Origin: a virus
Virus record (IMG/VR): IMGVR_UViG_3300044846_000615
Location: 1 to 30,630 of that record
DNA: 30,630 nucleotides
Strand: one strand, 5' to 3'
Shown: in pieces, positions 20,020 to 28,366 of the stretch
Position numbering within the stretch: position 1 is the stretch's first letter
Layout: each line of letters opens with the position of its first letter
Made by a program: the position numbers and the translations under genes
The notes under the pieces: model-generated
What the model was told of the DNA's origin: nothing
What the model saw: only the letters and a program-made list of their open reading frames with translations
Database searches by the model: none

Positions 20020-20291
20020 AACATCAAGAAACACATCCCGACCTAGATGTCGAAGGATGCTTTGGATGTCGTGTTGCAGGGGTTCGTATGGGTGTCAACA
20101 CCACTACCAGTCGTGGGAGTAAGGTGGCAGAAATCAATACAACAGAACGTAACTGGAACAAAGATATGCCAGCATACAAACGTCTTCGTGCGGATGGTTT
20201 ACAACCGAAGAAGATTGATGGTGCTGCCAACGTAGAGAAAAGAGCGCAAGAAGGATGGCAAGTGGAAACAGGGATACTTCCAACTATCTGA
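20016..20291 (+). CDS. Small protein with CxxC motif
   Basis: This 91-aa protein has its GTG start overlapping the previous stop by four bases. An N-terminal CFGC (residues 15-18) follows HPDLDVEG and is preceded by a His-rich start (KHQETH), so a metal-binding knuckle is possible, though only two Cys are present. The remainder is basic, with a TERNWNKDMPAYKRLRADGL helix. Similar HPD-EGCFGC proteins recur in environmental actinobacterial phages, but I know of no function. It lies between fibre genes and the glycosyltransferase gene, which overlaps its last 37 bases. Confidence 0.75.
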   Translation: MKHQETHPDLDVEGCFGCRVAGVRMGVNTTTSRGSKVAEINTTERNWNKDMPAYKRLRADGLQPKKIDGAANVEKRAQEGWQVETGILPTI

Positions 20292-21388
20292 ACCTTGTTG
20301 GTGTCAACATCGAAAAAGTGGGTTACGGCAAAATGGTTGTCGGACTGCGTAATGCGTTATCGGAAAAGGTAACACTTGTTGAAGATGCTGAACATGTTGT
20401 TTTTGCTTTAAGACCTAACTTGATTAAAGGTTGGCAGCGTACGCAGGTGCCGCATTTGTTGACTATGTGGGAAACGAATTGGTTGCCACCAGAGTTCTCT
20501 GACTATCTACAAAACTTTAGTAAGGTCATTGTTCCTTCGTTGCATAACTGGGAACTGTTCTCACAATTCCATGATGATGTGCATATGATTCCGTTAGGTG
20601 TTGACCGTGGTATGTGGTTCCCTTCGGAAGATAAACCTGATGGCAAGTTCCGTATCATGTGCGGGGGTTCGGAATGGTATCGCAAAGGTATGGATGTGGT
20701 GTTAGAGGTGTTTAACAAGTTGCAGTTACCTGACGCAGAGTTACATATCAAAATTGTTCCGCCGCATCTGTTCGCACCGAAAGATTTGGAGTATCCGAAT
20801 GTGGTGGTGCATCGTGACTGGTTGACTGTGGAGCAGGAACGTGATTTGGTTCGCTCTATGCACGGGTTTATATCTGTTTCACGTGGCGAAGGGTTTGGGT
20901 TAATGCCGTTACAAGCAATCTCTGCTGGTGTCCCAACGATTCTTTCTGATGCTCATGGTCATCGAGAGTTCTCCAACCTTGCCACCCATCGGATACCTAC
21001 TACTAGTGTTCCTACTGCTAAAGGTGTTTGGCAGGACATGGGTGATTGGGATGAACCTGACCCTGAAGCACTCGCTGAAGCCATCAAAGATTTGTATGCG
21101 AACCGTGACAAGTATCGTCGTCAGGCAAACCTGACAGCCCCACAAACAGCGGCGTTCAACTGGGGTACAGCCGCCGACCAGTTACTACAAATTGTTAAAC
21201 CATCTGGGAAACAGGTACCAGATGATTGGATGCCATTGGAACCTACATGTGAGATACAGGTGTCACGGCGTGTTCACGCCACCATTGGTGGTCATACTGT
21301 GAAGATGGTTCCAGGGGAAATGTATACTGTAGTGTTGAATGTGCGCGATACTTTGCGTGAATCAGGATACTTATTGGAGACACTATGA
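20255..21388 (+). CDS. Glycosyltransferase, GT-B fold (GT4-like)
   Basis: This 377-aa protein would transfer a sugar from a nucleotide-sugar donor. It shows the two-domain GT-B layout: N-terminal VGVNIEKVGYGKMVVGLRNA, a middle HMIPLGVDRGMWFP, then the donor domain with FRIMCGGSEWYRKGMDVVLE. The donor-binding signature EGFGLMPLQAISAG begins at E212. In GT4 enzymes the pattern is Glu, seven residues, Glu; here the second position is Gln220. The last 50 residues (VSRRVHATIGGHTVKMVPGE) form an added small domain. Targets could be virion proteins or host surface glycans. The start is uncertain: the ATG at 20255 overlaps the previous gene by 37 bases and lacks a well-spaced Shine-Dalgarno. Confidence 0.9.
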   Translation: MASGNRDTSNYLNLVGVNIEKVGYGKMVVGLRNALSEKVTLVEDAEHVVFALRPNLIKGWQRTQVPHLLTMWETNWLPPEFSDYLQNFSKVIVPSLHNWELFSQFHDDVHMIPLGVDRGMWFPSEDKPDGKFRIMCGGSEWYRKGMDVVLEVFNKLQLPDAELHIKIVPPHLFAPKDLEYPNVVVHRDWLTVEQERDLVRSMHGFISVSRGEGFGLMPLQAISAGVPTILSDAHGHREFSNLATHRIPTTSVPTAKGVWQDMGDWDEPDPEALAEAIKDLYANRDKYRRQANLTAPQTAAFNWGTAADQLLQIVKPSGKQVPDDWMPLEPTCEIQVSRRVHATIGGHTVKMVPGEMYTVVLNVRDTLRESGYLLETL

Positions 21389-24752: not shown

Positions 24753-25925
24753 ATGGCAGTTAATGGTAAAAGCAGAAGGTCATATCGAGGTGCGCCTGTA
24801 TCCAACACGCTTAAGGTAACCCTTAACGCAAACGCAACCACCATCACACTGACTGCTCCAATGTCTGGTTTCTCTACCGATGCTGAACCTTTCTTTGTTG
24901 TGGTTGACCCTGGTACTGCTAAGGAAGAAAAGATTTGTGTTAAATACGCCACCACCGATACTCTTACTGTTGTAGACCCTGCTGTTACTTCTACATGGGG
25001 TTCATCTGTTAATGGTCGTGGTGCTGATGGCACTACTGACCGTGAACATTTACAGGGTGCTGTTATTTATCCTGTGTTTACGGCGTTAGAAGCAAATCAG
25101 TCTAACGAGTTGGTATCTAAATACGCTAACGCTGGGTCTGTTGTGTATCAGGGTTCGGGAACGCCAGGTACTTTTACTGAACTTGTTGTTGGTACGGCTG
25201 CTCAAGTGTTGAAAGTAAACTCTGGTGCTACAGCCCCTGAATGGGGTCAGGTTACTGCTGAGGGTATTGCTACTGGTGCTGTGACTTCAGCCAAAATTCT
25301 TGATGCAACTATTGTGCAGGGTGATTTGGCTTTGACGTTGTTGAAGGTTCTTTGTCCTGTTGGAACTATTAGTGCTTATGCTGGTGCGACTGCTCCTACG
25401 GGATGGTTGTTGTGCGATGGTACTGCCACTACAGGTTATACGGAACTGATTGCTTTGGTTGGGGCTACAACCCCGAACATGAAAGGCAAAGTTGTTGTTG
25501 GACTGAACTCTGTTGAAACAGAGTTTGACACTTTGTTTGAAACTGGTGGTGCAAAAACTGTTACTTTGACTTCAGCGGAATCTGGTGTCCCTGCCCACTC
25601 CCATACGAATACGGCAACGTTTACTGGCAACTCAGGGACAACTAGCAGTAAAAATCTTGAACACAACCACTCATACAGCAGTGACCAGTTTTTTTCCATA
25701 GGCGTTTTCAATGCGGCAGACCTTCCTGGTGACATTTATCAGGCTTCTGGTTCAGCCAACACAGGGGGAATGTCTACCAACGTAACCCATGACCATAGTT
25801 TTACTCCATCAGGCACAGTGACAGTGACCAACGTACCCAACACCGCAGCAAATGCAGCCTCAGCGCACACGAACTTGCAGCCGTACATAACCCTTAACTA
25901 CATCATTAAACACGACTACGTTTAG
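24753..25925 (+). CDS. Tail-collar fibre protein with HxH motifs
   Basis: This 390-aa protein has an N-terminal attachment domain (residues 1-115: RRSYRGAPVSNTLKVTLNAN, GRGADGTTDREHLQGAVIYP). A linker follows, then a tail collar domain from about residue 202 (PVGTISAYAGATAPTGWLLC to NMKGKVVVGL). After the collar come HSH (H282/H284), HNH and HDH motifs. In short tail fibres such His pairs often bind metal ions that hold the trimer together. It closes with LQPYITLNYIIKHDYV. It has the same collar end as the gene at 16340, so the phage encodes two collar fibres. AGGAG at 24744-24748 marks the ATG. Confidence 0.9.
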   Translation: MAVNGKSRRSYRGAPVSNTLKVTLNANATTITLTAPMSGFSTDAEPFFVVVDPGTAKEEKICVKYATTDTLTVVDPAVTSTWGSSVNGRGADGTTDREHLQGAVIYPVFTALEANQSNELVSKYANAGSVVYQGSGTPGTFTELVVGTAAQVLKVNSGATAPEWGQVTAEGIATGAVTSAKILDATIVQGDLALTLLKVLCPVGTISAYAGATAPTGWLLCDGTATTGYTELIALVGATTPNMKGKVVVGLNSVETEFDTLFETGGAKTVTLTSAESGVPAHSHTNTATFTGNSGTTSSKNLEHNHSYSSDQFFSIGVFNAADLPGDIYQASGSANTGGMSTNVTHDHSFTPSGTVTVTNVPNTAANAASAHTNLQPYITLNYIIKHDYV

Positions 25926-25927
25926 AG

Positions 25928-27214
25928 ATGCGGTCTAGCCGTTGGCTGATATTTGCGCCTCTCGCAGTATTCGCTTTATTTCCACCAGCCGCTAAAGCCG
26001 ATGTTCTCGGCAACTGGACATACAGTCAGTCACAAGATTGTGGTGGCTCAATAGAGGTAGTTGACAACATCATCACTTTGCATGGTCCTGACTTGAACGG
26101 TTGTAGTGGTGGGGCGCATTGGGTGCAAATTGAAACGGTTGTGCCTGCTGATGTGAACACAGTTGACTTTGATTGGTCGTATCAAACCAATGATGGTTGG
26201 GTGTATGACCCGCCACAGTACGGCATCAACGGCGTATACACATTGATTACACAAGTCAACACTTCGTCAGGAACTATGTCTATACCTGTGGTTGAAGGCG
26301 ACATTTTTACGTTCCGTCAATACTCGATAGATACCTGTTGCCAGCCTGGTCATTTGTCTATTGCTAATCTTTCTTTATGGGACACCACAACAACATCCAC
26401 GACTACAACGACGACCACTTCTACTATTGCACCCTCTACGACTGTGCTTGTGGTAGAAGAATCGACTACTACGATACTTCAAACAACGACCACACTGCCA
26501 CCAGACACGACAGTGCCAGAGGCGACAACAACGACGGTGGTGGAAGCGTCAATAACAACGGTTGAAGCGTCAACAACAACGGTTCTTGAACCTTTAACAA
26601 CAGTTCTGGAAACGACAACGGTTCCCGACACCACCATCCCCGACACCACCGTTCCTGATACCACGGTGCCTGACACCCTGCCACCAGACACCCTGCCAGA
26701 CGCACCAGAAACGCCTGAGACGCTCCCAATAGATGTAACCGAGGAAATACCAGCCGAACTAGTAGAAGCCCTCCTAGACGCTGTGGACAGTGGCGAACCA
26801 CTCACCGAAGAACAATTCGACACAGCCATAGAAGCACTCGGCGACCTCAACGAAGAAGAAGCCGTAGCCCTAATCGAGCAACTCCTTGACACCGAAGTAA
26901 CAGCCGACCAAGCCGAAGAACTCGCCACCAACCCTGACGTGTTGGCTGTCATCACCGAAGAACAAGCCACAGAAATCTTTGAAACCATTGAAGTAGAACA
27001 ACTAGACGACACCCAAATAGCCGAACTCACAGCCGCAATCCAAGACGCACCCCTCGCCGTACAAGAAGCCTTTGAAGCGACCATCGACATCTTCGGCGGA
27101 TTTGACGACTATGTGCCAACAGGTTCCAACATCCCTGTAGGAGAACGACGAACCCTCATCGCCATCGCAGCGGGGGCAACCCTCACAGCGGCATCAACTA
27201 GAATAAGACGATAA
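25928..27214 (+). CDS. Secreted Thr-rich surface protein with helical C-terminal domain
   Basis: This 428-aa protein begins with a signal peptide (RSSR, then WLIFAPLAVFALF, cleavage likely after A24). Residues 25-151 are a Cys-containing beta domain. Residues 152-265 are a mucin-like Thr/Pro/Glu linker (TTTTSTTTTTTTS and VPDTT repeats). Residues 268-395 form acidic helical repeats (EEQFDTAIEALGDLNEEEAV). The end has GSNIPVGERRTLIAIAAGAT, which may be a membrane anchor. The Thr linker is like those of surface proteins of Acidimicrobiia. A signal peptide is unusual in a phage structural region. The gene lies between the collar fibre and the holin/endolysin genes, so a role at the cell envelope (exclusion, adhesion or lysis) is possible. 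Codons swing to A/C-ending near 26,720. Confidence 0.85.
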   Translation: MRSSRWLIFAPLAVFALFPPAAKADVLGNWTYSQSQDCGGSIEVVDNIITLHGPDLNGCSGGAHWVQIETVVPADVNTVDFDWSYQTNDGWVYDPPQYGINGVYTLITQVNTSSGTMSIPVVEGDIFTFRQYSIDTCCQPGHLSIANLSLWDTTTTSTTTTTTTSTIAPSTTVLVVEESTTTILQTTTTLPPDTTVPEATTTTVVEASITTVEASTTTVLEPLTTVLETTTVPDTTIPDTTVPDTTVPDTLPPDTLPDAPETPETLPIDVTEEIPAELVEALLDAVDSGEPLTEEQFDTAIEALGDLNEEEAVALIEQLLDTEVTADQAEELATNPDVLAVITEEQATEIFETIEVEQLDDTQIAELTAAIQDAPLAVQEAFEATIDIFGGFDDYVPTGSNIPVGERRTLIAIAAGATLTAASTRIRR

Positions 27215-27381
27215 TGAAACGCCTCTCCAACCTCATCAAAGACAACGCCTGGACATACGCAGGCACAGGACTAGTCCTCATCACCCTGTCAGGTCCTACC
27301 TTAAGACAGGCTATATGGGTGGTTGGTGTATCATTAGTTTTACACGCAGCATTAACTCTCAGCACAAAGGAATCAGAATGA
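27214..27381 (+). CDS. Small two-helix membrane protein, possible holin
   Basis: This 55-aa protein begins MKRLSNLIKDNAWTYAGTGL and has two hydrophobic stretches (WTYAGTGLVLITLSG at 13-27; AIWVVGVSLVLHAALTL at 34-50) separated by a short polar TLRQ turn. The start overlaps the secreted-protein stop by one base. The end overlaps the next gene by four bases (ATGA). Size, two membrane segments, basic start and position just upstream of the endolysin fit a holin or a holin partner. Which of the two small membrane genes is the holin cannot be decided from sequence alone. Confidence 0.75.
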   Translation: MKRLSNLIKDNAWTYAGTGLVLITLSGPTLRQAIWVVGVSLVLHAALTLSTKESE

Positions 27382-27614
27382 AGAAAGCACAAGACATCGC
27401 AGGTCGTATCGTGGCAGTGTTCCTGTCCTCAGCGCTGGCAATCGTAGGCGGCAGTGCCGTTATTGCCCCCGAGTTGGAAATTTGGAAGTCGGCGGTTTTA
27501 GCAGGCTTTGCCGCTACTGCGACAGTCATCCAGAAACTTGCTCAGTCATCGCTTGATGGCAAACTCACTATGGAAGAAATCAACAGTGCGTTCGGCGCAA
27601 AAGCCGAAAAGTAA
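27378..27614 (+). CDS. Putative holin, 78 aa, two membrane segments
   Basis: The ATG at 27378, after a good AAAGGAA, gives MKKAQDIAGRIVAVFLSSAL. A first membrane helix spans residues 10-28 and a second, with ELEIWKSAVLAGFAATATVI, spans about 36-52. The C-terminus is short and charged (DGKLTMEEINSAFGAKAEK). This arrangement of two helices and a DGKLT-EEI tail is recurrent in actinobacterial phages directly before endolysin genes. Holins form membrane lesions that release or activate the endolysin at lysis. A longer upstream start (27315) would run inside the previous gene and is unlikely. Confidence 0.8.
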   Translation: MKKAQDIAGRIVAVFLSSALAIVGGSAVIAPELEIWKSAVLAGFAATATVIQKLAQSSLDGKLTMEEINSAFGAKAEK

Positions 27615-27618
27615 ACCT

Positions 27619-28146
27619 GTGGCGTACCCTGTTGTACCCGTAAAACTTTGCGACCATCTAAAGACTGCGGTTGCAGGCAAACTTACTGCTGACCAGTTAC
27701 GCAAAACTGTTGGTGGCACGTTGCATCATTGTGCTGCTGACGCATGGGAAGCGATGGTTGATGCCGCATCTAAGGCTGGTATCAAACTGACACCGACATC
27801 AGCAGGCGACACATATCGCACACTCGAATCCCAAACCAAAGCGTTCTTCCAACGGTACCAACTGGAACCAACAGGCAACCCTGACACACGCACCTTCGAA
27901 GGTAAGAAGTGGTATCTGAAAAAAGGTATGGCATGTTTGGCAACACCAGGCAAATCGCAGCATAACCTCGGGATTGCCGTTGATGTGGCTACAGCATCAG
28001 GACCTAGACTTGCATGGATGCTAGCCAATGAACATCTATTCGGCTTCTCACATGAAGTTCAGTCGGAGCCGTGGCACATACGCTACACCCAAGGAAACCA
28101 AGTTCCGCCTGCGGTTGCAGCCTTCGTTGCTGCGAAAGCCGTATGA
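27619..28146 (+). CDS. Endolysin, M15-type D-Ala-D-Ala carboxypeptidase
   Basis: This protein should cleave peptide bonds in peptidoglycan stem peptides or cross-links. From a GTG start (175 aa) it has the zinc ligands of the VanY/M15 family: H115 and D122 in SQHNLGIAVD, with E150 and H153 in EPWHIRY. About 80 residues before the catalytic core are a separate helical segment (KLCDHLKTAVAGKLTADQLR) that may bind cell wall. The GTG at 27619 is favoured because it gives MAYPVVPVKLCDH and begins after the holin stop; the longer frame from 27508 overlaps the holin gene. The ribosome site is weak. Its place among small membrane proteins supports a lysis role. Confidence 0.9.
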   Translation: MAYPVVPVKLCDHLKTAVAGKLTADQLRKTVGGTLHHCAADAWEAMVDAASKAGIKLTPTSAGDTYRTLESQTKAFFQRYQLEPTGNPDTRTFEGKKWYLKKGMACLATPGKSQHNLGIAVDVATASGPRLAWMLANEHLFGFSHEVQSEPWHIRYTQGNQVPPAVAAFVAAKAV

Positions 28147-28147
28147 C

Positions 28148-28366
28148 ATGGATGCTGGTTGGGCTAGTGTTCTCGCTGCTGCTGTTGCTGGTACTTTCGG
28201 TCTGCTAACAGTTCTTGTTGCTAGGTTCGCTAAAGAAAACCGTGCCGACCACGCTGTAGTTCAAGGGATTTTGAGGGGCATGCACAAAACGATTTACCGT
28301 ACTGAGGACAAGATAGATGTTGTTGCAAACAAACTTTCGGAGCATGTAGAAAACCACAAAAAGTAA
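28148..28366 (+). CDS. Small membrane protein with coiled-coil tail
   Basis: This 72-aa protein has a single N-terminal membrane helix (GWASVLAAAVAGTFGLLTVLVARF) and a polar, probably coiled-coil rest (TEDKIDVVANKLSEHVENHKK). It starts two bases after the endolysin stop. Such one-helix proteins occur at the end of lysis cassettes as holin partners or as spanin-like proteins. Because the presumed host has one membrane, a holin-accessory role (XhlA-like layout) is more likely than a spanin. A longer reading from 28028 would overlap the endolysin gene and lacks family likeness. Confidence 0.8.
   Translation: MDAGWASVLAAAVAGTFGLLTVLVARFAKENRADHAVVQGILRGMHKTIYRTEDKIDVVANKLSEHVENHKK

Follow-up and report, generated by a model that had tools for sequence, protein, structure and literature searches.

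The DNA analysed here (the window) is one strand of 30,630 nucleotides, positions 1 to 30,630 of the IMG/VR virus record IMGVR_UViG_3300044846_000615. Between a tail gene and a set of lysis genes it carries an open reading frame (ORF) for a putative surface protein of 428 amino acids. The parts of this protein and the neighbouring genes are as follows.

24753..25925, plus strand: tail collar fibre protein, directly upstream of the surface protein (Pfam Collar, 2.3e-7; PHROG tail families)
25928..27214, plus strand: surface protein ORF, ATG to TAA, 428 aa
25928..25999, plus strand: Sec-type signal peptide, aa 1-24, ending in AKA (sequence; hydropathy maximum; AxA-type ends recur among relatives)
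26000..26383, plus strand: N-terminal jelly-roll beta-sandwich, aa 25-152, the exchangeable tip (AlphaFold; VIA; 93 viral loci; PA14 swap)
26384..26713, plus strand: Thr/Pro/Glu linker, aa 153-262 (Thr, 46 of 110 residues)
26714..27103, plus strand: acidic helical core, aa 263-392 (charge count; fused homologue modelled with short helices)
27104..27151, plus strand: DDYVPTGSNIPVGERR motif, aa 393-408 (columns invariant or nearly invariant in alignments A2, A3 and A5)
27152..27214, plus strand: hydrophobic tail TLIAIAAGATLTAAS, basic end TRIRR and TAA stop (hydropathy; homologous segment modelled as a 22-residue helix)
27214..27381, plus strand: 55-aa two-helix membrane hairpin, tm55 (phrog_29041), whose start overlaps the surface protein stop (TAATG)
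27378..27614, plus strand: holin-like protein of 78 aa with two transmembrane (TM) segments, whose start overlaps the hairpin stop (ATGA) (sequence; weak phrog_443 match)
27619..28146, plus strand: VanY-type D-Ala-D-Ala peptidase endolysin (Pfam VanY, 2.2e-15)
28148..28366, plus strand: small membrane protein following the endolysin (phrog_32850; PHROG match)

The label ‘holin-like’ is a weak one, combining a phrog_443 holin match at E=0.059 with two hydrophobic stretches and the position of the gene. The same 78-aa two-TM protein (window 27378-27614) is at odds with the label ‘nuclease’ of phrog_26427, a family that is probably mislabelled. The VanY endolysin (window 27508-28146) matches a stretch within the tape-measure profile phrog_16823 (E 2.7e-48), suggesting that this type of peptidase may have been exchanged between lysin and tail genes, and a glycosyltransferase gene lies inside the late structural region (window 20255-21388; phrog_2170).

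An earlier note, made from the sequence alone, had described a signal peptide, a Cys-containing beta domain, a Thr/Pro/Glu linker of about 110 residues and an acidic helical part, placed just before the lysis genes. Sequence and hydropathy bear out this layout in the 428-aa ORF, as do the flanking genes its position, with the tail collar gene upstream and the holin-like gene and VanY endolysin downstream. The hydrophobic end that it noted is also present, but is short, and a second membrane gene of the unit (27214-27381) had gone unmentioned. Read by eye, the signal peptide is MRSSRWLIFAPLAVFALFPPAAKA, with a cleavage site between AKA and D. Cys residues occur at positions 38, 59, 137 and 138; Thr density reaches a maximum of 44 per 100 residues, vs. 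at most 21 in any of the 13 further long ORFs compared; and the last 166 residues contain 40 Asp/Glu and five Lys/Arg. Only two hydropathy peaks are evident, the signal peptide and residues ∼408-424, the latter followed by RIRR, making the tail TLIAIAAGATLTAAS a probable membrane anchor. The predicted structure of a fused homologue (a moderate model, pTM 0.43) shows a helix over the hydrophobic segment, a terminal hairpin and short helices in the core; topology was judged from hydropathy together with this model, which suggest that the protein is exported and anchored in the membrane. The Thr/Pro/Glu linker (aa 153-262) is likely to be a wall-spanning stalk. The T content of the C-terminal half of the gene (window 26628-27228) is 11-18%, vs. 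∼28% in the N-terminal part, in line with separate histories for the two halves.

Searched on its own against Pfam and PHROG, the surface protein gave nothing but weak, chance-like matches, and no significant structural match was found for the fold of its C-terminal part. Judging by full-length relatives on 40 IMG/VR contigs (59-100% identity, with the full protein as query), the ORF is nevertheless a real gene rather than a chance reading frame. An alignment of the C-terminal part retrieved 239 IMG/VR relatives, and a wider C-terminal alignment at least 412 loci; the contigs concerned include some of about 40 kb and others of 100-270 kb. These proteins are referred to here as the YVPxGS surface-protein family, after the DDYVPTGSNIPVGERR motif that is their best-conserved stretch; a profile of the helical core and the YVPxGS..RR motif, both of which the window protein carries, defines membership. 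Among annotated phage records, only DSL-LC01 (OQ999401) matched; this metagenome-assembled phage has a predicted Actinomycetia host, and its matching protein, the hypothetical protein WJZ48438.1, has no assigned function (PMC10611076). Its C-terminal module is 43% identical to that of the window protein over 95 aa, and it likewise has Thr linkers and a signal-peptide-like start; it differs in its length of 944 aa, its several beta domains and its fused hairpin. A near-identity search of phage records gave no match with the whole window, and a search with tm55 as sole query also gave none. The family is large and apparently undescribed, a search of the non-subscription literature having found no paper on it. 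A second signal-peptide-bearing family, MDPVCHSG.EGTWG..., occurs near the lysis genes of large phages (L058:6703-8086, L096:8213-9661).

A narrow C-terminal alignment gave no match among 84,980 bacterial and archaeal genomes. Run against genome contigs, the wider alignment retrieved four chromosomal loci in actinobacterial metagenome-assembled genomes (MAGs), one of them named Acidimicrobiaceae, and a phage-only family was therefore rejected. The genes flanking these four loci are metabolic, and another chromosomal copy lies near genes whose translations resemble IMP dehydrogenase and GroEL; MAG binning error, a small residual possibility, does not fit such neighbours. Among 395 Acidimicrobiia genomes the C-terminal module was detected in 8, and among 221 genomes of one family of this class in 16. 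The chromosomal proteins (L203-L206 and others) share with the window protein a signal peptide, a beta ectodomain, Thr linkers, the acidic helical core, the motif (as a YVP(T/V)GS anchor), the hydrophobic segment and the hairpin, fused or as the next ORF, but their tips are DUF4082, RCC1 or unrecognised domains, and lysis genes are not adjacent. Its presence in chromosomal genes for surface proteins, in one family of Acidimicrobiia, marks the C-terminal module, by homology, as a host-type wall-spanning anchor. In a quick tree (unrooted, with some long branches) the host rows form three separate groups among the phage rows, suggesting repeated exchange. PMT-type mannosyltransferase homologues in six of seven host genomes make glycosylation of the Thr stalk possible.

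The resemblance to a host surface protein that the earlier note had remarked on thus appears to reflect a shared anchor module, and its guess at the host group gains support from the same Acidimicrobiia homologues. The separate searches of the two ends that it proposed gave at least 412 viral loci and 16/221 host-family genomes for the C-terminal module, vs. 93 viral loci and 0/221 for the N-terminal domain. The annotated terminases closest to that of this virus (OX376640/OX376641, 27% identity), together with the Acidimicrobiia homologues, make an actinobacterial host likely.

Either the membrane hairpin forms the C-terminal end of the surface protein itself (in the 100-270 kb phages and DSL-LC01) or the next gene encodes it, and it was present, fused or adjacent, in all complete loci inspected; at eight inspected loci where the profile had missed it, the hairpin lay slightly farther downstream, or the locus was ended by the contig end. 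The end of the DSL-LC01 protein resembles the separate 55-aa gene of the window. Among 98 split loci, the hairpin start overlaps the surface-gene stop by 1 nt in 37 and by 4 nt in 33. Fusion in large phages, DSL-LC01 and hosts, together with this coupling in small phages, indicates that the surface protein and hairpin work together. Of the 18 small-phage loci compared with the window, all except one encode a hairpin whose amino acid sequence is 95-100% identical to tm55; identity at its fourfold-degenerate sites is 65-94%, and tail genes are only 43-59% identical in most loci. By these values, the hairpin module moves between phages and is under purifying selection.

The usual order directly after the surface gene is hairpin, holin-like gene, VanY endolysin. 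When only distinct loci of sufficient length are counted, 53/60 split and 29/31 fused phage loci (82 of 91 together) have a holin-like or lysin gene no more than 3 kb away, vs. none of the four host loci. In 81 of the 98 split loci the holin-like gene starts at -11 to +2 nt from the hairpin stop, and on the 267,766-bp contig IMGVR_UViG_3300042868_009074 each of two paralogous surface genes (L075, L085) is followed by a holin-like gene at the very next base; directly after the unit, such a gene was not detected in 16 split and 13 fused loci. At five inspected loci (L149, L146, L140, L158 and L166, one of which is on a 97-kb contig), a glycosyltransferase-like gene rather than lysis genes comes after the hairpin gene.

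Homology to host genes and the mixing of phage and host rows in the tree would also be expected of a host surface gene acquired by chance and carried without benefit. We attach almost no weight to this explanation, against which stand the number of viral loci (at least 412), the conserved position beside the lysis genes and, in most small-phage loci, the purifying selection on tm55 evident from the amino acid and fourfold-site identities given above.

The linkage itself raises the question of a lysis component or regulator, in which the hairpin would be the partner or antiholin of the holin-like protein, and the tip would help to break the wall or an outer glycan layer, or would time lysis by sensing the outside. 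The overlapping or abutting hairpin and holin-like genes of the 81 split loci, the two surface/holin-like pairs of the 267-kb phage and the endolysin that comes next in small phages are all consistent with such a role, and the RI/T system of phage T4 illustrates that an external signal can gate a holin. However, the host homologues combine the protein and the hairpin without nearby lysis genes (0/4), the 16 split and 13 fused loci without a detected holin-like gene directly downstream point the same way, and a general lysis part would not be expected to swap tips often. The hairpin is caught between these observations: it adjoins the holin-like gene, making it a holin or antiholin candidate, yet is fused to host surface proteins that lack lysis genes. 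We regard a lysis role, the strongest rival to the masking proposal given below, as unlikely overall, though with an appreciable share of the probability, and the tight coupling to the holin-like gene keeps it in play. A more specific version, an outside-sensing switch whose tip detects neighbours, superinfecting virions or released glycans and whose hairpin signals the holin-like protein to advance or delay lysis, seems to us a long shot.

The tip (aa 25-152) is modelled by AlphaFold, with high confidence, as an all-beta jelly-roll (pLDDT 91.6). Its best VIA match is the C-terminal domain of VesC (Z 12.0); at Z of about 8-9 come carbohydrate-binding modules (CBMs), domains of phage tailspikes (7.8-9.4 for several of these two groups) and MAM domains. 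By VIA it has a jelly-roll/CBM-like fold, a common one that does not in itself imply sugar binding, although such binding is plausible. Among predicted viral structures, the closest belong to uncharacterised proteins from uncultured phages, and residues 25-152 have no match in Pfam, including PA14 and the known CBM families. Sequence comparison with solved structures gave weak matches to fluorescent proteins (up to E 0.009), which were judged spurious. Domains of the window type were found at 93 viral loci, among fetched loci only in YVPxGS surface proteins, and in none of the 221 host-family genomes, in a search that detected the viral positive controls.

Elsewhere in the family the tips match PA14, fn3, PPC, SUEL lectin and beta-helix domains, and in large phages adhesive multi-domain tips reach 1,400 aa. 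Near-identical phages may differ in this domain: the tail protein p21974 is 100% identical between a locus with a PA14 tip (L030) and one with a jelly-roll tip (L004), and the tail protein of the window is 98.6% identical to that of a locus with a different tip (L013). Conversely, 12 pairs with tail identities of 52-57% have tips that are 94-99% identical. Judged from these comparisons, tip swapping follows the cassette exchange pattern of genes that meet variable surfaces, and this exchange, together with the glycan-binding-like fold, leans towards a surface-masking or adhesive role.

An adhesive role could take other forms. Progeny might be brought near new hosts if infected cells, or their vesicles and debris once lysis is over, stuck to other cells or particles, as the exchangeable tips and the large multi-domain tips would allow; very late expression would leave little time for adhesion by living cells, and we consider this quite improbable. 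A virion protein, namely a receptor-recognising adhesin or fibre whose late-operon gene comes after that of the tail collar, is suggested by the position of the gene directly downstream of the collar fibre gene and by the occurrence of the tip fold in phage tailspikes. It is hard to reconcile with a cleavable signal peptide, a hydrophobic tail and a membrane hairpin, with homologues on host chromosomes, and with tip domains confined, among fetched loci, to YVPxGS surface proteins, and is in our view highly improbable.

Among known systems, LPXTG sortase substrates likewise have a C-terminal motif, a hydrophobic stretch and a basic tail, and sortases are present in seven of seven host genomes. 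The window family nevertheless differs in carrying a conserved DDYVPTGS..RR motif in place of LPXTG, with RR before the hydrophobic stretch, and in having a dedicated hairpin partner; assignment to the LPXTG substrates was accordingly rejected. PblA and PblB of the streptococcal phage SM1 are also phage-encoded, lie near lysis genes and end up as bacterial surface adhesins, but they are tail-derived, lack a signal peptide or membrane anchor, and reach the surface through holin/lysin action.

Building on the anatomy, family, hairpin partnership, host homology, tip exchange and lysis linkage established above, we propose as the likeliest reading, with a confidence somewhat short of an even chance, that the protein is a surface-displayed adhesive, made late, which masks host surface glycans against adsorption by progeny and superinfecting phages. 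This phage-borne version of a membrane-anchored surface protein of host type would be secreted by the Sec pathway; its hydrophobic tail, together with the hairpin protein from the translationally coupled next gene, would hold it in the cytoplasmic membrane. The Thr/Pro-rich stalk would carry the variable, glycan-binding-like jelly-roll tip through the cell wall, and since the holin-like protein and the endolysin are encoded in the same operon, display on the infected cell would come late, shortly before lysis. Once at the surface, where this anatomy would place it, the tip would occupy the variable glycans of the host and would thereby keep both progeny and superinfecting relatives from adsorbing to the dying cell and its debris. 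The envelope function that the earlier note had put forward fits the anatomy and the lysis-gene linkage alike, and the two forms that it suggested, superinfection exclusion and a new lysis component, both stay candidates.

A precedent for masking is Llp of phage T5, which blocks the receptor and so counters adsorption to cells already infected and to the fragments of lysed ones (PMC9586334). As a phage-made envelope protein proposed to prevent useless adsorption, Llp is a functional analogue rather than a homologue: it is a small lipoprotein made early in infection of a Gram-negative host, with the outer-membrane protein FhuA as its binding target, whereas the window signal peptide ends AKA-D, with no lipobox Cys at +1. 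Two counterpoints apply, namely that Llp-like receptor blockers act early, while the surface gene sits in a late, lysis-linked position, and that the jelly-roll fold serves roles other than glycan binding.

Many lake viruses of Actinobacteria bear a host-style surface protein beside their lysis genes, and the infected cell probably remodels its own surface before it bursts. This points to a widespread, hitherto unnamed strategy, based on modular host-type surface proteins whose outer domain is swapped between near-identical phages. Whether phages remodel the surface of their host as infection ends thereby becomes testable, and the tips may offer a handle on the receptor sugars of abundant, largely uncultured freshwater Actinobacteria.
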